From Fibrobacter intestinalis (lineage in GTDB: Bacteria; Fibrobacterota; Fibrobacteria; Fibrobacterales; Fibrobacteraceae), in the NCBI RefSeq assembly GCF_900167415.1, contig NZ_FUWU01000037.1:1-32785 (forward strand): 32,785 bases of DNA, written 5' to 3'. A program made the translations under genes and the position numbers. Positions 15,446-32,264 of this stretch are shown here, in pieces (the stretch's first letter is position 1; every line of letters begins with the position of its first letter). The notes below the pieces were generated by a model. That model did no database searches and was not told the DNA's origin. It saw only the letters and a program-made list of their open reading frames with translations.

Positions 15446-16603
15446 TCAGTTTTCTTCCGGTCCCATGTATTCGACGACGAAAATCAGCGTGGCATTACCG
15501 GGAATGGGTCCGCCTCCGCGGTTTCCGTAACCCAACGCTGGCGGAATGACGAGAACGCGCTTTTCTCCGGGGAGCATTCCTTCGACACCGAGATCCCATC
15601 CGCGGATGACGCTGCCCTTGCCGAGCGGGAAATTGAAAATCTGTCCGCGCTCGCGGGAACTGTCGAACTTTTTGCCGTCTGAAAGGAATCCGGTATAATG
15701 GACTCGGGCGTTTTCGCCGACTTTGGCGCCTTCACCGCTGCCTTCACGGATAATCGCGTATCGCAAACCTTCGGGTCCGTCCTGCAAATTCAACTGGGTC
15801 GTGTCCGGGAAAAAGTCCATCGTCTCGGCCAAGAGTTCGTCCTTTTCGACTTGGAGCATTTCCACGCGGAAAATCAGGGTGGAGTTCGGGGGAATCGCAC
15901 TGTAGGTTTTGGCACCGTATCCCATGGAAGGACTGATTTTCAGCCAGCGAATGGTCCCGGGAGAAACTCCGTCCAATCCGACTTCCCAGCCGTTGATCAG
16001 GCGTCCGCCCCCAAGAACGGTCGTCAGCGGTTTCCCGTAGTCTTTGGAACTCGAAAACTTGCGTCCCGAAGAAATCCAGCCGGTGTAATGGGTTTGAATT
16101 CGGGTCCCTTGAGCCGCAGCAACTCCTGAACCGACTTTTTCGTCCCAGAATTGTACGCCGTTGCCCAATTTTTGCCATTTCGCTTTTTTGCTGTCGGCGA
16201 AATTGTCCGGTTTCAGGGGCGGATCCGCAGAAACCAGCTCCACTTCAAAATACAAGTCGGAACGGGCGGGGATCGGACCGATTTCCCGGTCGCCATAGGC
16301 AAGCTGGTATGGAATGGACAGCTTTCGGATTTCGCCGATTTTCATCCCCAAGAGTCCGCGTTCCCATCCGGGAATGACTTGGCCTGTGCCCAGCGCAAAT
16401 TCCAAGGGTTCTCCGCGGTCGTAGGAATTGTCGAACATGGTCATTGCGGAATCGGCCAGATAGCTTTTGTAATGGACCCGAATAAGTTGTCCGTTTTGAA
16501 TGGGCTCGCCTTCGCCCTCTTTCACCGTGACGACTTCGTAGGGAATGGCCCAAAGATAAGCGGAAAAAAGAAGCAGGAGGCAAAAAAATCTGTTTATACG
16601 CAT
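15446..16603 (-). CDS. Secreted peptidyl-prolyl isomerase with three FKBP domains
   Basis: Predicted envelope folding helper that speeds proline cis-trans isomerisation. Of 385 residues, 1-19 form a signal peptide ending at LWA. Three FKBP domains follow, at about 25-127, 150-255 and 280-382. Each shows the family core: VHYKSYLADSAM, HYTGWISSGRKFSSS and VHYTGFLSDGKKFDSS near the start of the domain, and GLLGMKIGEIRKLSIP, GLDGVSPGTIRWLKISP and GVEGMLPGEKRVLVIPP in the middle. The third is closest to a canonical FKBP (LGYGNRGGGPIPGNATLIF); the first and second have weaker active-site loops. An AGGTGATC site before the ATG supports the start. Most secreted FKBPs carry a single domain. It is divergent from the neighbouring operon with a 63-bp gap. 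Confidence 0.93.
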   Translation of the reverse strand: MRINRFFCLLLLFSAYLWAIPYEVVTVKEGEGEPIQNGQLIRVHYKSYLADSAMTMFDNSYDRGEPLEFALGTGQVIPGWERGLLGMKIGEIRKLSIPYQLAYGDREIGPIPARSDLYFEVELVSADPPLKPDNFADSKKAKWQKLGNGVQFWDEKVGSGVAAAQGTRIQTHYTGWISSGRKFSSSKDYGKPLTTVLGGGRLINGWEVGLDGVSPGTIRWLKISPSMGYGAKTYSAIPPNSTLIFRVEMLQVEKDELLAETMDFFPDTTQLNLQDGPEGLRYAIIREGSGEGAKVGENARVHYTGFLSDGKKFDSSRERGQIFNFPLGKGSVIRGWDLGVEGMLPGEKRVLVIPPALGYGNRGGGPIPGNATLIFVVEYMGPEEN

Positions 16604-16666: not shown

Positions 16667-17239
16667 ATGGATTTGACAATCATTTTCATTCTGATAGCCA
16701 TCGTGCTGCTCTCTTTGGTGCTTGCCGGTTTGGGAGCTTATGTGGTCATTCACAATTCGGATGAAAAGGAAAAGGAATCGGCCTCTCCGGTCATCGATGT
16801 CTCTGGCCAGTATGCGGTGATTGTTCGCCCGGCTCGTGAATCGATCGAAAAGGTAAAACCTTCTTTGGAAGATCTGGCGAAATGGCTTTCTACCACGGGC
16901 ACTAGTCCAGAGGAGCAGGCTCGCTTGATCGAGTCTTGGAAAAAAAGTATCGACGATGTGGTCAAGGTGGTCGATGAGGGCGATAGGAATGGAACGGTGA
17001 CTTACCGCATTGTGATTGGTCCAAGGAGCCGTCCGTTTTGTAATTTCTTGAGCGACGACAACTATGTGACCCGGGAACAGATTCGGAACCACGCAGAAAT
17101 TTTGCCTCCGTATGTTCTGGGTTGCGATTGCCGTCTTGTACCCAAGCTCCCTTGGGAAAATCCGGGAAAGGCTGGCTGGAAAGCCCTTGTTCCGGAAAAT
17201 GGAGCTTACAGCGTTCCCGATTGGAGACACATTGCGTAA
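16667..17239 (+). CDS. Membrane-anchored hypothetical protein
   Basis: Unrecognised family. The 190-residue protein has one strong N-terminal membrane segment (about residues 3-26: DLTIIFILIAIVLLSLVLAG) without a clear cleavage site, followed by a charged stretch (NSDEKEKES) and a soluble domain of ~150 residues. The soluble domain has a helical charged middle and a C-terminal part with three cysteines in CNF...CDC arrangement, rich in Pro and Trp. The ATG at 16667 was chosen because the membrane segment begins there; an open frame to 16631 has little support. Its last 8 bases overlap the start of the next gene, so it is translationally coupled to the PorV-type protein and may work with it. 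It could be a periplasm-facing accessory protein. Confidence 0.7.
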   Translation: MDLTIIFILIAIVLLSLVLAGLGAYVVIHNSDEKEKESASPVIDVSGQYAVIVRPARESIEKVKPSLEDLAKWLSTTGTSPEEQARLIESWKKSIDDVVKVVDEGDRNGTVTYRIVIGPRSRPFCNFLSDDNYVTREQIRNHAEILPPYVLGCDCRLVPKLPWENPGKAGWKALVPENGAYSVPDWRHIA

Positions 17240-19406
17240 AATTCTTCTTTTGTCTTTCCTCTGTTCGGCGGTATCTTTTGCGGCGAACTCGGCGATTATT
17301 ACTTTGGAAATGCCCGTTGGTACGCGTCAGCTGGGTATGGGCGAAACCGGAGTCGCTATTGCGGACGACGCTTCGGCTTTGTATTACAACCCCGCAGGTC
17401 TCGCTTTTGGACCTTTGGCGAACGAGTGGGAAGTTTCTCTGGAGCAGAAATCGGATAAAGTCCCGGCGATAACCAAATTGGCTGCAAAAGGTCGCGCCGG
17501 CTTTTTTGAAAAAAGCGAAATTTGGGCGGGAACGAACAGCGGCATTCGCCATTATGACGGCGAGCACTGGTCCGATTATTTTGTGGTCACGCTGGAAGGA
17601 CAAGAGAAAATTCGCGATGCGGTTCGTGTCTTTGCGGGAACGGAATCGGGTTTGGACGAATACACCCGGAAAGTGAAAAAATTTAACGACGTGCAGAATG
17701 ACGTGGACGAATCCTACGTGCGCGATGTGAAAATTCCTTGGAATCTGGTGGTCGGCGATACCGTGACGGCTCTTTTATATGACGCGCGAACCGAAAAATT
17801 GTGGGTGGGCACGCCGAAAGGACTTTTCCGTTTTGACGGCAAGACCTGGAAAAATTACGAATCCGAATTGGGAACTCCGCGTGTGACCGCTCTCGCGAGC
17901 CAGGGGGCGACGCTTTGGATTGGAACGGACAACGGGCTTTTTTCTTATAGAAATGGCGTTGTGGAACAAAAGGGAAAAGTGCTTCCCAGTCAAAAAATCA
18001 ACGCGATTGCCTGGTCCGAATTCAAAGGGGAACTTTATGTGGCTGCGGATGGAGCGGGCATCGCTCGCCTTGTTCCCAAAAAAGGTTCCAATACCAAAGA
18101 CCGCTGGAGCCTGTTCAACGAAGAAGATGGCTTGATGGATTTGCATTCGACGGCTCTCGTGGTGGATTCTTCGGGGCACGTCTGGTCGGCGCACAACGGT
18201 GGACTTTCGCATTTTAATTTGCGCAAGTGGGAGCAGGTCCGTTTTGAAAGCAACGTGGTCAATGATCTGGCTGTTGCCAAAGACGGCGCGGTTTGGATTG
18301 CGACGAATAAGGGCGTGTGGCGTCATTTACCGGATTACGCGACCTCTTCTGGAAAAAAAGCCGAATTGGAACGCAAACCGGAGGAACGGGGAAATCAGCA
18401 GTCCGAAGACGAGTGGGAGCATTTTCATTCGGGCAACGGGCTTTCTTCGAATCATGTCTGGGCGGTTCTTCCGCAGGCGAATGACGTCTGGTTCAGCACG
18501 AGCACGGGCATAGAACGTTACAAAGACGCGGATTATCAGCTCACCTTTTTCTACGAAAAATTGTTGCCGGTTTTGAATATCCCGGATTTGTATCATCTGT
18601 TTGCGGGTTTGACCATTCCCCTTGCCGAATGGGGAACTCTGGGCGTCTCCGTGAATTTTGTGTCGTTTGGCGAAACGGTCGTTTCGACGGATGACGAAAG
18701 CTCCACGAATTCCAATAGCTCGGAAGTTGTCGGGGCCATCAGCTACGGAACGAAGCTTTCGCAAAAATCTTCTATCGGCTTGTCGATTAAATTTTTCTAT
18801 TCGGACTTGAGTTCCGGGGCATCGTCTAGCGGCGATGAAGCGACGACTTTCAGCTACGCCTTTGACGTGGGCTTTTTGCGCCGGGACTTTTTGATTCGGG
18901 ATTTGAGCGCGGCGATTGTGCTTGCCAATATCGGCCCGAGCGTTTATTACACCGACAAGTCGGATCAGGACCCGATTCCTTTGACTTGGCGTCTGGGGCT
19001 TTCCTACGAAATTTTGAATACTCTCGACCATCGTTTGCTGATAGCCGCCGATTATAACCGCACTGTCGTTTATGACGATGATAAAGGCGACCCGGAACCG
19101 TTCTATACGGCGATGTGGAAAAGCCTGATTCATCCGGAACTCGGCGGGCATGGCGCGACGCGTTTCAAAAATTCCTTGCTTCAGGGCATTTTCAATGTCG
19201 GCGCGGAATACACCTATTCCAATACGGTCGCTGTGCGAATCGGTTATCTTTACGACAAGACCGGCAAGCGCAACGAAGTGGATTTGGGCTTGGGCGTGAT
19301 GCTCTCGGACGTGCTGGAATTTGATATTGCGACCATCAAGGATGTGGGCGACAACGACGGCGTTCGCGATGGGCAAATGCGCTTTGGAATGATTTTCAAA
19401 TTCTAA
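17232..19406 (+). CDS. PorV/PorQ-like outer-membrane protein with an inserted beta-propeller
   Basis: Predicted outer-membrane protein of 724 residues. Start: a TTG at 17232 with GGAG at 17223-17226, five bases away, which gives a clean signal peptide MRKILLLSFLCSAVSFA; an ATG at 17199 would add an odd 11-residue leader. Residues 25-60 carry the PorV-type motif: MPVGTRQLGMGETGVAIADD, then ASALYYNPAGLA. Residues about 75-435 hold about eight WxGT-GL-type repeats of the two-component-regulator propeller kind, for example IWAGTNSGIRHYDG, LWVGTPKGLFRFDG and LWIGTDNGLFSYRNG. From about 437 the sequence returns to barrel-like amphipathic strands to the end, with a final aromatic-ended strand MRFGMIFKF. 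So a propeller seems inserted after the first barrel region. It is coupled to the genes on both sides. Confidence 0.75.
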   Translation: MRKILLLSFLCSAVSFAANSAIITLEMPVGTRQLGMGETGVAIADDASALYYNPAGLAFGPLANEWEVSLEQKSDKVPAITKLAAKGRAGFFEKSEIWAGTNSGIRHYDGEHWSDYFVVTLEGQEKIRDAVRVFAGTESGLDEYTRKVKKFNDVQNDVDESYVRDVKIPWNLVVGDTVTALLYDARTEKLWVGTPKGLFRFDGKTWKNYESELGTPRVTALASQGATLWIGTDNGLFSYRNGVVEQKGKVLPSQKINAIAWSEFKGELYVAADGAGIARLVPKKGSNTKDRWSLFNEEDGLMDLHSTALVVDSSGHVWSAHNGGLSHFNLRKWEQVRFESNVVNDLAVAKDGAVWIATNKGVWRHLPDYATSSGKKAELERKPEERGNQQSEDEWEHFHSGNGLSSNHVWAVLPQANDVWFSTSTGIERYKDADYQLTFFYEKLLPVLNIPDLYHLFAGLTIPLAEWGTLGVSVNFVSFGETVVSTDDESSTNSNSSEVVGAISYGTKLSQKSSIGLSIKFFYSDLSSGASSSGDEATTFSYAFDVGFLRRDFLIRDLSAAIVLANIGPSVYYTDKSDQDPIPLTWRLGLSYEILNTLDHRLLIAADYNRTVVYDDDKGDPEPFYTAMWKSLIHPELGGHGATRFKNSLLQGIFNVGAEYTYSNTVAVRIGYLYDKTGKRNEVDLGLGVMLSDVLEFDIATIKDVGDNDGVRDGQMRFGMIFKF

Positions 19407-20050: not shown

Positions 20051-20267
20051 TGAATTAGAAAATTCTCTGGCCTGGAATTTTTGATCAGTTCTTTCCCTCG
20101 TTTTCTTTGGAGCTGCCTTTTGTTGGCAACATATTCTATTTCATTAAAATTGATTTTGTACAAATGACGAATGCTTGTGAAATTTATTCTTCGTTTTTTT
20201 CGCTAGATTCTTTGTTAGAAAAATTTGACAGACACTTCTAAAAATATTTTGATAAAGAAAAAGAGTA

Positions 20268-20421: not shown

Positions 20422-20490
20422 CATTTTTGAAGATGAACTTTTAGAGGATGCCTAAGATGAATTATTCCGCATTGAGGTGACCGTTTTTAT

Positions 20491-20613
20491 TCTCCATACA
20501 AACTTTTTGATTTGAACGGGAAATTGCTTCGTTCTGGAGTTCTCCGCGGTAGAACTCTCTCCACGCCGCCTTCGCCTGCAGTTCTCGAAATTGGCGGGAA
20601 AAGGAAATTCTGA
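20491..20613 (+). pseudogene. 3' relic of a secreted-protein gene (C-terminal tail only)
   Basis: An open stretch encoding about 40 residues (SPYKLFDLNGKLLRSGVLRG and onward, ending at TGA 20611-20613) matches the C-terminus of the gene at 23266-24048. Positions 20491-20602 align without gaps to 23920-24031 with 11 differences in 112 bases. Seven of the ten differing codons are synonymous, which says the copy was under protein-level selection until recently. Sequence upstream of 20491 does not match, and a stop codon lies in frame at 20473, so the front of the gene is lost. The final residues differ (KRKF instead of KKFLLR). It is the left-hand member of a direct repeat flanking the two-gene cassette. 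Confidence 0.75.
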
Positions 20614-20677: not shown

Positions 20678-23266
20678 ATGTTCTATCGTTTTCTCATCTT
20701 GTTGCTGTTTTTTATCTGTTCTGCATCGGCCGTCACGGTGGAAAGCCGTGACGAACAGCTTTCGAACGTCTCTCAAACATCCCTCCGTATTCGTCTTTTT
20801 AACGATTCTGGCGATTCGCTCAAAAACGTGGAATTGCGCTATTTTCTCTCGAAGAAGAAATTGCCGGTTCATGTAGAAAAGTATTATCCGGCAAATTTGC
20901 TTGCAGAAATGGTGTCCCCGGATTCTGGCTCGCCATTTTTGAAAATATCAATCCCCACAATTGCTCCCGGCGTTTTCCCAGACAGTGGGGGCATTTCGCT
21001 GGGGTTGCATTTTGCCGATTGGAGCGACTTCGAAAAGGAGAAAGATTTCAGTTATCCTTCGTCGGAAAATTTCATTGCCACGGGGAAAATTGCGGTTTAC
21101 ATGAATGGGGAATTTGTACAAGGCGTTCTTCCGGGAAGCCTTTCGGAGGCGAATCCGTTTTCGCTACAGTCGGGTTCTGGATTTTCTCTTTCTCCCGGAG
21201 AAAAGGTGCATTTCGCTTGGCGAGAAGTCGATGGGGCGAACAGCTACCGTTTGAACATTTTATCTGCGGCGGATTCCGCGGTTGTTTTGCGACAGGAAAC
21301 GGAAGCGACCAAGGTTGACGTGGCTTTGGATTCCGGGGAGTATTTGTGGAATGTGGAGGCTTCCGAATATGGTCTGGGGAGTGCCGCATGGAATTGGGAC
21401 GTGAAGCCCTTGGACGACTTGTTTTGGCAACGGATTTCGGTTTTTACCGATACTGCCTGGATTCTTGAAAATAAGCTGGATGTGACACCGCTTGCCGCTC
21501 GCAAGGACACTCGGCTTTTGGATGTCAAATGGGGCGAAATGGCAGTGGCGCGGGAATGGGACAAGCCGCATTTGGGACACGGGCATTACGACGAGGAGGA
21601 AAGTTACCGCTGTTGGGCTGTCGGGGCGCAGGTTTTGAATCATTATTACGGTGGAAATATCACTCAGGACGAGATAAAGTTGAAGTTTAAAGGTTATCCG
21701 GGTCTAGCCGTTTTTTCGGATTCTGTTAAGGCAAAAATTCTTGGGGCGTTTTTGCATTATTATCAAGGAGGACTTGATACTATATATTTTTCTTCTTTGT
21801 TGCTTTGGGTATTGAATGATTATGCTTCTCTAATTCGCAAAGATTCTCTTCCATCGGAAAATGATGTAAAAACTTGGATTGATGCTGGCGTTCCTCTTTA
21901 TGTTTGGACTGAACGCCATGTGATGATTCTGGATGCGTATCGGGTTTCGCTTTCGGGGCGCATGGATGTGCGCCTGTTGAATACGGACAACGACGGGACG
22001 GTGGAATGGCGGGTTTTGAAATCCTCCGCGCTGGAAGGCTTTATTGCGGCGACCGTGAACGGTCCCGTCCGGATGACCGACGCACGAATCCACACAGATG
22101 GCGACGATGACGGTATGATGGATTACGATGAAATCGAACGCTTTGGAACGAATCCGGGAAATTCGGATTCCGACGGCGATGGCATTGACGACAAAACGGA
22201 AGTGCTTTCTTATACGATACGAGATACTCTTTCTAATGATACAATGGGTCTAAGACGCGGTTTAAATCAATTGACTTTTGCGGATATAGATGAAGACGGA
22301 CTTCGTGCAGAATTGGACTTTGATTCGGACGGTGGCGGTAAAGCTGACGGGGAGGAAGATAAAAATAAAAATGGATTGAAAGACGGTGACGAATCCGATG
22401 TATATGATGCCGGCGATGATTTGAAATTGGTAGAAATTGATTTGGATGTTCCTGATTCGATAACTCTTTATGCGTTAGGACGTTTGTCTGTGAACGATGG
22501 AGTGAAATGTCGTCAGAACTCAAAAAATTGTGACATTGCTTCGGAATCAAAAGATTCGGCTTATGCGGTAAATATAGGACGCAGTGCTTATGTTCGTCGG
22601 ATTGATGCAAAAGGAGGCGTTTTGTTGAGAGATTATGCAACGGTTACTGGAAATATCCGAATTCATTCTTTGCCATTGCGCAATCTTTCTCTAACATTGC
22701 AAAATAATGCGAATTTTAGTAGGACCTCTTTTTCTCAACTAGAAGCTCTTTGGCCCTATCGTGTTGCCGAACTGCCTGAAATGCAAAATGTGGGGCTGGC
22801 GACAAAAGAAATTTTCTATAACGAAAGTTATACTTTAAAAGACGGAGATAGGTTTAAAACGTTGAAGGTGCATCCCGGCGGAACGCTTTTGATTGAATCC
22901 GGCGAAATGTACGTCGGCAATATTCAATTGGAATCTGGCAGTAAGGTGCTTTTTGTGAATCCGGGAAAGCGAACCATTTTGCATCTGGACGGCAGCGTGA
23001 TTTGGCGTTCTAGAGCTTTAAACGATGATTTGGAAAAAGTCGGTAAGGGTTTCAAAGTCATTCAGTATGGCACAGAAACAATGATCGTCGAAGGAATGTG
23101 GGCGGGGACGATTTTTGCGCCGAATGCAGATTTGATTTTAGGTCAATCCAATAAAAAACTTTACGGACGTTTTTTAGGCAAGAACGTAACCGTTCACCAA
23201 TACGCGCAAGTTTATAGTGTTCGTTTTAATCCAGAAACAAACTCTGTTATCGCCAGGAGGAAATGA
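20678..23266 (+). CDS. Secreted multidomain papain-like cysteine-protease-type protein
   Basis: Predicted secreted protein of 862 residues. Residues 1-18: signal peptide. Residues about 25-150: a CBM3-like fold (SLRIRLFNDSGDSLKNVELR, then the FADWSDFEKEKDFSY and IAVYMNGEFVQG motifs typical of cellulose-binding family 3). Residues about 165-240: a fibronectin-III-like unit. Residues about 300-460: a papain/C39-like peptidase, with YRCWAVGAQVLNHYYGG (C312), RHVMILDAYR (H414) and LNTDNDG (N435/D437) as the candidate triad; I do not see an obvious oxyanion glutamine. Residues about 472-575: acidic calcium-binding repeats such as DSDGDGIDD. Residues about 650-855: a beta-rich region ending GTIFAPNADLILGQ...GKNVTVHQYAQVYSVRF, resembling surface-anchor domains. 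GGAG at 20667-20670 supports the start. Composition is mosaic. The gene overlaps the next at ATGATGA. Protease activity is inferred. Confidence 0.75.
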   Translation: MFYRFLILLLFFICSASAVTVESRDEQLSNVSQTSLRIRLFNDSGDSLKNVELRYFLSKKKLPVHVEKYYPANLLAEMVSPDSGSPFLKISIPTIAPGVFPDSGGISLGLHFADWSDFEKEKDFSYPSSENFIATGKIAVYMNGEFVQGVLPGSLSEANPFSLQSGSGFSLSPGEKVHFAWREVDGANSYRLNILSAADSAVVLRQETEATKVDVALDSGEYLWNVEASEYGLGSAAWNWDVKPLDDLFWQRISVFTDTAWILENKLDVTPLAARKDTRLLDVKWGEMAVAREWDKPHLGHGHYDEEESYRCWAVGAQVLNHYYGGNITQDEIKLKFKGYPGLAVFSDSVKAKILGAFLHYYQGGLDTIYFSSLLLWVLNDYASLIRKDSLPSENDVKTWIDAGVPLYVWTERHVMILDAYRVSLSGRMDVRLLNTDNDGTVEWRVLKSSALEGFIAATVNGPVRMTDARIHTDGDDDGMMDYDEIERFGTNPGNSDSDGDGIDDKTEVLSYTIRDTLSNDTMGLRRGLNQLTFADIDEDGLRAELDFDSDGGGKADGEEDKNKNGLKDGDESDVYDAGDDLKLVEIDLDVPDSITLYALGRLSVNDGVKCRQNSKNCDIASESKDSAYAVNIGRSAYVRRIDAKGGVLLRDYATVTGNIRIHSLPLRNLSLTLQNNANFSRTSFSQLEALWPYRVAELPEMQNVGLATKEIFYNESYTLKDGDRFKTLKVHPGGTLLIESGEMYVGNIQLESGSKVLFVNPGKRTILHLDGSVIWRSRALNDDLEKVGKGFKVIQYGTETMIVEGMWAGTIFAPNADLILGQSNKKLYGRFLGKNVTVHQYAQVYSVRFNPETNSVIARRK

Positions 23267-24048
23267 TGAAAAGACTTGGGATGATTTTTTTAGTGCTTTA
23301 CATGTTTGATTTCACTCATGGATTCTCTCCTTTTTTCGGAGATTTTTGGTTGGACTTTATACAGATTGATACATTAAAAGTTCAGGAAAATATTTGTGAA
23401 GTTTATGCGGATGCTTTTGTTGATAGTACTAAAAAAGAAGATTTCCTTGGACGTGAAAATTGTTTTTATGGGGGAGGCACTTTGGGTATTTTATCTCAGT
23501 TAGATACTACTGTTGCATTCTATATTAACGATATTAAGCTCGGACCTTATTTTTATATAACAAGAAATCAACAAGCCTGTGAGGGCGAATCTTTGGCGTG
23601 GTTAGAAACAGTAGGAACTCCGGGGACTCATCAATTTAGTGAAGTTTTGATTTTTGAACTTTTGCGTTTTCAAGAACTGGGCGTAATCACAAATGAACGA
23701 GATAGTTTTGAAATTCAATTAAAAGATACTTTGGCCTCAATGATTGCAAGAAAAGATTACTGCCCAGATTTGGAATCCACAGATGGCATGATCGGACCGA
23801 ACTGCTGCTCTCTCGTGGAAAGCCCTTCGGCAATTCCTATGCGTTTTTTTGTGCAAAATACTTTTCGGGTGTCAAAAATTTCTCAAGGCAAATTCCATAT
23901 CGACGGCGTAGCTCTCGGCTCTCCGTACAAACTTTTTGACCTGAATGGGAAACTGCTCCGTTCTGGAGTTCTCCGCGGTAGAACTATCGCCACGCCACTC
24001 TCGCCTGCAGTTCTCGAAATTGGCGGGAAAAAGTTCTTATTGCGCTAA
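23266..24048 (+). CDS. Secreted hypothetical protein with a C-terminal sorting-like tail
   Basis: Unrecognised body. The 260-residue product starts MKRLGMIFLVLYMFDFTHGF, a signal peptide. The ATG at 23263 is also possible, but AGGAGG at 23255-23260 sits two bases from it and five from 23266. The middle is acidic, AT-rich and has several cysteines (a CC pair in GPNCCSLVE near residue 190). The final ~45 residues (YKLFDLNGKLLRSGVLRG, then PAVLEIGGKKFLLR) resemble the C-terminal tails of secreted Fibrobacter and Bacteroidota proteins (type IX-like sorting domains). Base composition jumps from about 30% G+C in the body to about 57% in the tail on hand-counted lines. It is coupled to the protease-like gene by overlapping ATG and TGA, so it may be a partner, inhibitor or substrate. 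Function unknown. Confidence 0.7.
   Translation: MKRLGMIFLVLYMFDFTHGFSPFFGDFWLDFIQIDTLKVQENICEVYADAFVDSTKKEDFLGRENCFYGGGTLGILSQLDTTVAFYINDIKLGPYFYITRNQQACEGESLAWLETVGTPGTHQFSEVLIFELLRFQELGVITNERDSFEIQLKDTLASMIARKDYCPDLESTDGMIGPNCCSLVESPSAIPMRFFVQNTFRVSKISQGKFHIDGVALGSPYKLFDLNGKLLRSGVLRGRTIATPLSPAVLEIGGKKFLLR
23920..24031 (+). repeat. Direct repeat, right-hand copy (matches 20491-20602)
   Basis: 112 bp with 101 identical positions and no gaps compared with 20491-20602, same orientation, 3,429 bp apart. It codes for the C-terminal tail of the gene it sits in. Recombination between the copies would delete the two-gene cassette or rebuild a complete tail on the lost gene. Confidence 0.85.
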
Positions 24049-29849: not shown

Positions 29850-32264
29850 ATGAAATTTTGCGCTCTTTTGGCAGGAATTGCTGTCGCGGCAACTTTTAGC
29901 TTTGGACGAGTCGGTCCTGTGAGCCAATATGGGCAACTTCAGGCGGGTAAAAATACGAATGGCGCGGGAAGAATTTACGGTTCCTGTCCCGCTTATTCCA
30001 CTTCGGGAAACGAAGTTCAAGTTCAGGGCATGAGCCTTTTTTGGAGCATAGCTGCCGATGTGGGCACTCCGTTTTGGACGGCGGATATTGTATCTGGGCT
30101 TGTCGAAAAACAGAACATCCAGTTGATTCGCGCGCCGATGGGTGTCGATGAAGACTGGGGCTCCGGAAATTACTTTACAAATTCATCTTATTATCAGGGG
30201 CTAATGAATACGGTGGTGCAGGCGGCCATCAGTAACGATATTTATGTGATTATCGACTACCATTCTCACAAGGCGAATGAAAATGTGGAAAATGCCAAGA
30301 CGTTTTTCAAATACATGGCGGAAAAATGGGGAAAATACGACAATGTGATTTTTGAAGTTTTTAATGAACCCACAGAACAAAGCTGGGGAACGATCAAGAG
30401 TTATGCCGACCAGGTGATTTCCGTTATCCGCCAGTATTCCGACAACTTGATTATCGTGGGAAGCCGTAATTGGGACCAGTATCCCAATGAAGCGATTTCT
30501 AATCCGATTTCGGATAAAAACGTCGCCTATACGTTCCACTATTATGCGGGAAGTCATTATACAAATAAGGAAGGTGCGAATGCGGTTACGGCGATGAACG
30601 CAGGCCTTTCCGTTTTTGTCTCGGAGTGGGGAACGGTTGACGCTTCGGGCAATGGCGGTTTTAATAGCGGCAATAGCGCCACTTGGCTGAACTGGATGAA
30701 CAATAATAAACTCTCTGGCGCAAACTGGTCCGTTTCCAATAAAGATGAAAGTGCTTCGTATTTTAATGGTTCGGCGTGGAATTATTCGGAAAGTGGAAAT
30801 TGGGTGAATACGAATGTTTTCAGCAAATTGCCGACTTCCTACAAAGCGTGTTCGGGCGTTTCGGTGAGCTCTAGTTCAACGGCTTCCAGCTCTTCGTCGA
30901 TCCCGGCGGGCTATACGGATTATATTGACGATTTTGAAGATGGGGACTCTTTGGCGTTTACCGGAGGTGTCTGGTATGCTTATACAGATAAGGGCGATGC
31001 AGGGCAGTCTTCGATTTCGAACACCCCGAACACGGATAAAAACGGCGTTGCGGGTTATGATGTTGTTTTTTCTGCTGACAACGGCACTCAAAATATGGCG
31101 GGGCTAAAAAAAATCGTTCTTTCGCAAGGCGGGAATAAATACGAACCTTATGTCGCGTTGGGAGTCAAGCTGAATCCGGATGAATCGGCTTATGATTTGT
31201 CGAGCTGCAATACGATTTCCTACAAATACAAAGGTGCTGCGCACAACTTTAAAGCGGAAGATATGAATGTTTCCGATTATGGCTTCCATCAGGTAGCTAA
31301 ATTGGCAACGAATTCCTGGACTTCGGTCAATTTGTCTTGGTCGCAGTTGAACCAGCCTTCGTGGGCCGATGCAGTAACCCTTTCCCAAAAGCGCATCAAT
31401 AAGTTCACTTGGGAAATCAAGGGCGATTTGAAAGGAACGCAGCCGACCTACAATTACTTGTACATCGATGATGTGCGCTGCAATGGAATGGCCATTAAGC
31501 CGGTCGTTCCGGCTTCCAGCAGTTCGGGAAAATCCAGTTCTTCTGCGGCATCTTCATCGAGTGTCAAGCCTTCTAGCTCTTCAGCGATTTCCTCGTCGAG
31601 CGTCAAACCATCCAGTTCTTCAGCGATTTCCTCGTCGAGCGTCAAACCATCCAGCTCTTCGGCGATTTCCTCGTCGAGTGTGCAATCCTCTAGCTCCAGC
31701 ATTTCAACCTCTTATATTGTAGCAGGAAATCTGTCGCAGACTGTCGCCAAGGGAAGTTCAATAGAAACCGTTACGATTTCGAATGTGACTTCTTTTATCC
31801 GGCTTTCTTGGAATTTGGGCAGCTTCGGCAGCCTGAATGTGGAGCCTTCAGGAACAACGGTGACAATTTCCGGAAAAGTTGAAACTTGGGCTTCCGTCGG
31901 CAAAGTCACTGAAACTTTGGTGATTAATGGAGACACGGTGTATTTCAACATGAGCATTGTGGAAGAAGGAACGGAAATTTCGAGTTCCTCGGCGGAAAAC
32001 GGCTCCAGCAGCTCGGACGGTTCAACGGAGATTGTCATGCTTCCTTCCATGTCCTCTCTTTCTGTTGCGCTTGTCGGGCGCTCTTTGGAAATAGCGAGTG
32101 CGAATCCCGTAAACGTGGAAATCTTCGATATGCAGGGACGTCTTTTGAAGAGAATCCCGCAGGTGAATGGCTTGGTTTCGTTGGCATCCTTGCGGCAGGG
32201 TTCCTATATCGTTCGGGTACGTTCGCTTTCGTCGAATTGGACAAGACGAATTTCGATTCGTTGA
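29850..32264 (+). CDS. Secreted GH5 endoglucanase with carbohydrate-binding domain and Ser-rich linkers
   Basis: Predicted extracellular cellulase that cuts beta-1,4-glucan. Of 804 residues, 1-19 form a signal peptide. Residues about 20-335 are a GH5 catalytic domain, with acid/base E173 in IFEVFNEP and nucleophile E259 in VFVSEWGT; HYYAG and IIDYHSH are also family features. Residues about 351-547 form a CBM11/30-like beta-sandwich starting DYIDDFEDGD. About 548-620 is a Ser/Ala/Pro linker with three tandem VKPSSSSAISSSS units. About 621-708 is a beta domain I do not recognise. After a second Ser-rich linker the last ~75 residues end in a sorting-like tail (VEIFDMQGRLLKRIPQ, then GSYIVRVRS). 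A GAGGT site lies 5 bp before the ATG. The gene has its own promoter and terminator. Confidence 0.93.
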   Translation: MKFCALLAGIAVAATFSFGRVGPVSQYGQLQAGKNTNGAGRIYGSCPAYSTSGNEVQVQGMSLFWSIAADVGTPFWTADIVSGLVEKQNIQLIRAPMGVDEDWGSGNYFTNSSYYQGLMNTVVQAAISNDIYVIIDYHSHKANENVENAKTFFKYMAEKWGKYDNVIFEVFNEPTEQSWGTIKSYADQVISVIRQYSDNLIIVGSRNWDQYPNEAISNPISDKNVAYTFHYYAGSHYTNKEGANAVTAMNAGLSVFVSEWGTVDASGNGGFNSGNSATWLNWMNNNKLSGANWSVSNKDESASYFNGSAWNYSESGNWVNTNVFSKLPTSYKACSGVSVSSSSTASSSSSIPAGYTDYIDDFEDGDSLAFTGGVWYAYTDKGDAGQSSISNTPNTDKNGVAGYDVVFSADNGTQNMAGLKKIVLSQGGNKYEPYVALGVKLNPDESAYDLSSCNTISYKYKGAAHNFKAEDMNVSDYGFHQVAKLATNSWTSVNLSWSQLNQPSWADAVTLSQKRINKFTWEIKGDLKGTQPTYNYLYIDDVRCNGMAIKPVVPASSSSGKSSSSAASSSSVKPSSSSAISSSSVKPSSSSAISSSSVKPSSSSAISSSSVQSSSSSISTSYIVAGNLSQTVAKGSSIETVTISNVTSFIRLSWNLGSFGSLNVEPSGTTVTISGKVETWASVGKVTETLVINGDTVYFNMSIVEEGTEISSSSAENGSSSSDGSTEIVMLPSMSSLSVALVGRSLEIASANPVNVEIFDMQGRLLKRIPQVNGLVSLASLRQGSYIVRVRSLSSNWTRRISIR
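31563..31679 (+). repeat. Three tandem 39-bp repeats coding the Ser-rich linker
   Basis: Starts at 31563, 31602 and 31641 encode VKPSSSSAISSSS three times in frame, with a near-match partial unit on each side. Differences are few and mostly synonymous. Copy number can change by slippage, changing linker length without breaking the frame. Confidence 0.85.

Follow-up and report, generated by a model that had tools for sequence, protein, structure and literature searches.

Several secreted papain-like proteases of bacteria are encoded beside their own inhibitors. In Bacteroides, the genes for the C10 proteases Bfp and Btp are co-transcribed with those for the exported, staphostatin-like inhibitors Bfi and Bti, some of which are lipoproteins, and a genome may carry several paralogous pairs (as given in the portion of the account cited here, PMC3462683). 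The same portion of that account (PMC3462683) places staphopain next to staphostatin (peptidase family C47) and SpeB next to Spi (C10). The locus described here, from Fibrobacter intestinalis, has the same general plan: a papain-like protease gene runs directly into a gene for a protein predicted to be exported, and the genome holds several paralogous pairs. Staphopain is its closest solved fold and SpeB its closest sequence profile. For the staphostatins and Spi the presumed site of action is the cytoplasm, unlike the exported partner predicted here. Partly because of these precedents, we rate at slightly better than even the chance that the two genes are a protease–inhibitor operon of the Fibrobacteraceae, serving self-protection or immunity, resembling staphopain and staphostatin and accompanied by orphan arrays.

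The window, meaning the whole stretch of DNA analysed, comprises 32,785 nucleotides of a contig from a 3.29 Mb genome that is 99.95% complete. This genome has six peptidase domains of the family, and among the five congeners searched only G002 has one. Across 167 genomes of the phylum, a peptidase-domain profile of eight rows found matches in 39, every one of which belongs to the window's own family, the Fibrobacteraceae. The single protein found nothing in the genome contigs and a narrower alignment was needed, which gave 19 loci, every one in Fibrobacter or Fibrobacteraceae (MAGs). Where the records name a source, it is the digestive tract of yak, sheep or goat, or horse faeces. Fibrobacter is a main degrader of fibre in the rumen, and the Fibrobacteraceae are a family of fibre degraders. 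The viral contigs searched hold no relative of the protease, so no phage origin is seen, and the PADLOC defence models gave no family at E 0.1 for either protein. Elsewhere in the window, an open reading frame at 15449-16603 (-) carries three FKBP_C stretches on one chain.

The protease gene occupies 20678..23266 (+), exactly the reading frame that an earlier, sequence-only reading had proposed, and its product of 862 aa is identified by reading frame, model and fold search as a multidomain secreted papain-like peptidase. Residues 1-17 (20678..20728, +), a hydrophobic N-terminus ending CSASA, form the expected signal peptide. The front domain had been called CBM3-like and is so by fold: residues 16-153 (20723..21136, +) align in the model (VIA-align 2) with the CBM3 chains 6d5b_B (Z 17.8, rmsd 2.3, 135 aligned) and 2ylk_A (Z 17.6, 26% identity), and phmmer against PDB sequences matched residues 45-153 to CBM3b 3zqx_A at E 7e-7. 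Pfam CBM_3 (PF00942) did not match the window protease at E 1; a relative, L064, passes its cut-off (23.7 against 22.4 bits). The Trp of the DWS motif, a candidate position of the aromatic strip through which CBM3 domains bind cellulose, is kept in the window protein and varies across the family; the domain may bind cellulose. CBM3-like front domains also match elsewhere in the phylum, in very long reading frames of as many as 5710 aa (L034, L038, L045, L046 and others), some of them outside the window's family.

A beta-rich, FnIII-like domain follows (~166-230; 21173..21367, +), recognised from predicted strands only: six are predicted within ~168-229, at lower model confidence, and the search with the AlphaFold2 model gave it no fold match of its own. 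In many relatives the CBM3 fold is followed by additional residues, which in 4 of 16 match lamin-tail domains; these are absent from the window protein. Beyond the peptidase domain lie Asp-rich, TSP3-like repeats of calcium type (~474-580; 22097..22417, +), as anticipated: D474, D476 and D478 are kept in all 19 relatives, and Pfam TSP3_bac matches 7 of 16. The last domain, residues 586-849 (22433..23224, +), had been described as beta-rich and surface-anchor-like. It is indeed beta-rich, a solenoid like that of ice-binding proteins (pAdhesive_15 / choice-of-anchor A / DUF7305-like) that aligns with 4nu2 (Z 17.4, rmsd 3.0, 196 aligned, 8% identity), but anchoring by this end is not supported, the window protease having no tail of its own for the Type IX secretion system (T9SS). 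The AlphaFold2 model of the protease, from an 18-row alignment, has a mean pLDDT of 79.9 and a pTM of 0.45, so the orientations of the domains in it are not to be trusted.

The peptidase domain itself (residues 260-460; 21455..22057, +) is recognised by a fold match to staphopain and a profile match to streptopain. Its best solved match, over residues 260-459, is staphopain C, 8oig_A (Z 13.6, rmsd 2.6, 150 aligned, 11% identity), with 1cv8 at Z 13.4; the profile of 19 relatives reached streptopain at E 0.011 and aligned the family His on a streptopain histidine. Conservation was assessed in 68 of 71 peptidase domains (L180 and both L183 pieces excluded). The predicted nucleophile, Cys312 (21611..21613, +), is present in 67, with Asn in L089; the predicted catalytic His414 (21917..21919, +) is present in all 68, as are D277 and D331; and Asn438 (21989..21991, +), the predicted third catalytic residue, is present in 67, with Ser in L177. 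The sequence-only reading had chosen the same Cys and His, and the fold match together with this conservation supports their predicted proximity; its third candidates, N435 (kept in 57 of 68) and D437 (50 of 68), were off by three residues and by one. In papain-like peptidases the Gln of the oxyanion hole usually precedes the Cys by six residues; no conserved Gln occurs there in this family, position 306 being Glu in 20 of 68 and otherwise mixed. The papain-like part of the earlier assignment is supported. Pfam C10, C39_2 and C70 gave no match to the window protein at E 1, and matched only 2 to 4 of 16 relatives (best E 0.0007-0.0013, the scores shown lying below cut-off). Because none of the Pfam peptidase families scores above its cut-off in the rows listed, we class the domain as a separate papain-like family of clan CA, outside C10, C39 and C47. 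The gene product is very likely a secreted cysteine protease, with proteolysis its predicted activity, and the near-invariance of its catalytic residues in a staphopain-like fold is one reason for preferring an inhibitor operon.

The partner gene (23263..24048, +) starts within the stop of the protease gene, in an ATGA overlap at 23263..23266 (+), and encodes a secreted protein of 261 aa with a signal peptide, for which a role as cognate inhibitor or immunity protein has a chance of about even or slightly better. It consists of a variable domain (~residues 20-195; 23320..23847, +) and a T9SS-type C-terminal domain (residues 200-261; 23860..24045, +), the latter found by model and structure search. 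In the model this tail is a compact seven-stranded sandwich at the extreme C-terminus (strands 202-260, pLDDT mostly >90), and T9SS C-terminal domains make up six of the nine top VIA rows for the partner. The highest Z is the 7.7 of RemZ (8gl8_D), modest in being below 8, with rmsd 2.0 over 60 residues; other T9SS cargo matched are NucA (8glk_D), FspA (8glj), RemA (8gl6) and RgpB, with Foldseek E values weak, 0.029 at best. Pfam Por_Secre_tail does not match the window partner. The host genome encodes the T9SS translocon (SprA_N, E 8e-27, and PorV) and has 16 Por_Secre_tail matches. For F. succinogenes, an envelope proteomics study proposes that the enzymes of that species are exported by the T9SS (the portion cited, PMC6851124). 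Two further genes of the window touch on this system. That at 17112-19403 (+) encodes a PorV-like T9SS protein (PorVQ2 start at 65-98, PorV family at 473-764) seemingly split by an inserted stretch of beta-propeller type (propeller repeat ~379-399, weak PorZ), as though a single chain combined the functions of PorV and PorZ; that at 29850-32261 (+) encodes a GH5 cellulase whose linkers are Ser-rich and which matches Por_Secre_tail weakly, so that it is likely to be exported by the T9SS.

Against an inhibitor, the partner matches no known inhibitor or immunity family in Pfam (staphostatin and Spi included) or PADLOC, its variable domain is modelled at low confidence, and no inhibitor fold appears for that domain among the structure matches listed, which are filled by the tail. 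The idea that the partner is generally hypervariable was rejected: partner and protease diverge alike in five ortholog pairs (83/90, 85/86, 74/72, 97/98 and 62/58% identity, respectively), and the partner diverges faster only in the window's own group (47 against 77%).

The linkage of the two genes was surveyed, by script and then by eye, around 71 distinct peptidase domains, of which 62 were complete and judged; nine were dropped, L071, L086 and L161 lying at contig edges, L093 containing a run of N, and L053, L166, L180 and two L183 pieces being broken or cut. Partners missed by the signal-peptide filter (L064, L066, L151, L169, L173, L174) were added by eye, and the neighbours it had assigned to L061, L063 and L140 were removed as unrelated. 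A secreted partner, T9SS-tailed or a lipoprotein, lies directly downstream in 50 of the 55 complete relatives without a C-terminal tail of their own, and this linkage speaks for an inhibitor operon; its absence from the other five speaks against one. In 48 of the 50 the called start of the partner falls within a range of about -45 to +31 bp relative to the protease stop (the exceptions are L089 at +165 and L151 at +383). By our assignment, 30 of the 50 partners belong to the window superfamily, which profile comparison unites partly via intermediates, 10 are lipoproteins, five combine PDZ with a FlgD-type tail, four are of ~450 aa and one is of another kind, these other classes being unrelated to the superfamily. 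That there are at least four unrelated partner families, some adhesin-like (PA14/fibro-slime-like) or PDZ proteins, also weighs against inhibition. In L069 (3778-6928), four lipoprotein genes stand in a row behind one protease gene. L093, which had looked like a natural fusion of protease and partner, was rejected on account of its run of N. A simple polymorphic toxin with a swapped C-terminal toxin was likewise rejected, because here the C-terminus is the conserved part and the variation lies in another gene; papain-like domains, including a C39-like class, are listed among polymorphic toxins (in the portion cited of PMC3482391).

The main rival to the inhibitor reading, which we consider doubtful, arises from the same survey: the partner may be an adaptor acting in trans, so that the tail-less protease leaves the cell and is held on its surface by way of a T9SS-tailed or lipidated partner. 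Almost all types of partner carry either a tail or a lipobox, the window partner's tail folds like T9SS cargo domains, and none of the seven proteases with a tail of their own has a partner. In L160 the partner bears a FlgD-type tail that in the nearest relatives, L060 and L062, is found on the protease itself. By simple count the exclusivity of own tail and partner has a probability of C(12,7)/C(62,7) = 1.6e-6 (hand arithmetic, with kinship ignored), but on the tree of the 62 domains the own-tail state changed only twice (sign test median p 0.5); it therefore carries no weight, and was dropped as proof of anchoring in trans.

Co-divergence also speaks against an adaptor. In 28 protease–partner pairs, compared by Spearman correlation with bootstrap and Mantel tests, the divergence of the partner's variable domain follows that of the peptidase domain most closely (Spearman 0.54, Mantel p 0.001), ahead of the FnIII-like domain (0.45), the solenoid halves (0.23 and 0.29), the TSP3 repeats (0.27) and CBM3 (0.15), and another distance measure gave the same picture. 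The bootstrap share in which the peptidase lead vanished was 0.005 against CBM3, 0.021 against TSP3 and, against the two halves of the solenoid, 0.019 and 0.003; over FnIII the lead is not significant with 28 pairs (0.167), a point that counts against the inhibitor operon. The tail of the partner tracks CBM3 instead (0.60). That the variable domain follows the peptidase domain and not the solenoid favours contact between the variable domain and the peptidase domain, although shared lineage can give the same signal.

Partners also persist where the protease does not, which is a further argument for an inhibitor operon and against an adaptor. Four genomes have partners of the window type and no match to the peptidase profile: G001 (99% complete), G003 (100%), G004 (83%) and G017 (94%). 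In G003, a one-contig genome with no intact protease gene, six intact partner reading frames of 250-264 aa stand ~1 kb apart in an array with an IS transposase upstream; the first has a 198-aa protease end in front of it, and between the partners lie short remnants in which the start of a protease gene is fused to its last ~48 codons. Among themselves the G003 copies are 93-97% identical in their tails, in the pairs measured, and 41-99% in their middles. Compared with other genomes the pattern is reversed, the copy closest to the window partner sharing 69% of the middle and 38% of the tail. Another copy shows 85% identity to the partner that goes with the C77 paralog in the window's genome, over as much of that partner as is visible, so that the orphans resemble the partners of both of that genome's close proteases (variable part 69% and 85%). 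Where it could be computed, dN/dS of the variable part was 0.10-0.40; the constraint may predate orphaning, and the pairs that clearly postdate it differ too little to prove that selection acts now.

Other loci show proteases in decay beside partners: a partner stands by a 104-aa protease remnant in L054, the protease is frameshifted and the partner intact in L180, and L068, L072, L074 and L075 are further orphan or broken-protease cases. In L070 (6742-8271) a CBM3-type front is joined to the solenoid end, the peptidase domain is lost and a lipoprotein partner still follows; this, with the partner kept by L089 (4687-7815) despite Asn in place of the catalytic Cys, also favours an inhibitor. 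Between L089 and L087, dN/dS is 0.39 for the protease, higher than the 0.16 of the partner. The window has relics of its own, which add to the case, both just upstream of the protease gene. One (20092..20229, +; tblastn) is a decayed N-terminal stretch left by an older partner gene whose sequence type differs from that of the intact partner; it has 53% identity and 49.7 bits to the orphan partner L073_6561 of another genome (best of 200 shuffles of the region, 23.5 bits). The other (20476..20604, +) is left over from the C-terminal tail of a partner and shares 81-89% identity with the tail of the intact partner. Proteins whose N-terminal type is unlike the window partner's and whose tail is of the same class also occur at L054 5772-6977, which follows a remnant of a protease gene, L187 3808-5724 and L188 4020-4754.

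The same arrays could be silent cassettes for a variable surface antigen or adhesin, recombining in behind a protease gene whose product processes the partner. The near-identical ends and differing middles of the G003 copies, the window relic, which has the same tail but a different middle, and the adhesin-like nature of some partners would suit this. G003, however, offers no intact protease gene as an expression site, partner and protease diverge at similar rates in most ortholog pairs, and arrays of EsaG immunity genes likewise acquire conserved ends by recombination (in the portion cited of PMC9484751); we regard this explanation as highly improbable.

In the protease–inhibitor operon, the first gene would supply a secreted clan-CA cysteine protease mounted on a front module of CBM3 fold and a beta-solenoid like that of ice-binding proteins, and the second, translated from the ATGA overlap, its cognate exported inhibitor. 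The variable domain of the inhibitor would contact the protease domain, and its T9SS-type C-terminal domain would carry it through the outer membrane and hold it at the cell surface, a lipid anchor doing so in other lineages. The producer and its kin would be shielded from the protease, and in strains that lose the protease the inhibitor genes, in some cases arrayed, would be retained for orphan immunity. The operon might further serve T9SS-linked antagonism on fibre, specific to the Fibrobacteraceae, in which the CBM3-borne protease attacks surface proteins of rival colonisers, exported and fast-swapping inhibitors give self or kin immunity, and the orphan arrays of non-producers are acquired resistance; we hold this wider proposal conceivable if somewhat doubtful, and the use of the protease as a weapon on fibre is possible, though unproven.

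The sequence-only reading had imagined a protease carried to fibre, processing cellulosome-like, adhesion or plant cell-wall proteins, which would leave the neighbour an unrelated or accessory surface protein. The predicted CBM3 fold and confinement to a family of fibre degraders agree with this, and a cellulosome-linked papain-like peptidase is known from Ruminococcus flavefaciens (PMC5301203, in the portion cited), similarly tied to the fibre-degrading apparatus. That enzyme is attached by a dockerin, not by CBM3, and the cited portion of its description (PMC5301203) mentions no partner. This reading does not explain why an overlapping partner is conserved and diverges along with the peptidase domain, nor why there are orphan arrays, and we think such an enzyme alone improbable. 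The overlapping partner, its T9SS-type tail and the orphan copies and arrays point instead to a protease–inhibitor or protease–immunity pair.

If that reading is right, Fibrobacter would have a T9SS-exported protease-immunity system of its own, perhaps tied to fibre, and with it a route of competition for the fibre surface that is not described in the literature searched; it would also be a test case for T9SS-tailed inhibitors as orphan immunity. More modestly, there is still a new family of papain-like proteases with a partner superfamily that lacks annotation. The literature, searched by title and start of abstract with thin coverage of subscription journals, gave no description of this pair. 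The solenoid shares its fold with the ice-binding (DUF3494-type) proteins, at 8% identity, and a gut-type bacterium would not be expected to bind ice. The Vibrio Type VI system is known to have orphan immunity arrays that include partial effector genes (PMC5361080); arrays with conserved blocks and recombination are described for S. aureus EsaG and for TipC (PMC9484751), and rAID arrays for the Bacteroidales (PMC12247911), in the portions cited of each. Like the putative immunity genes here, those in such arrays outlast the effector, with partial effector genes between them, conserved ends and a variable middle; the putative effector here differs in being a multidomain secreted protease, and no link to a Type VI or Type VII system is seen. 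Compared with Bfp and Btp, the Fibrobacter pair is set apart by its CBM3 and beta-solenoid modules, the T9SS-type tail of the partner, the unrelated partner sequences, the orphan arrays and the lack of a recognised pro-domain.
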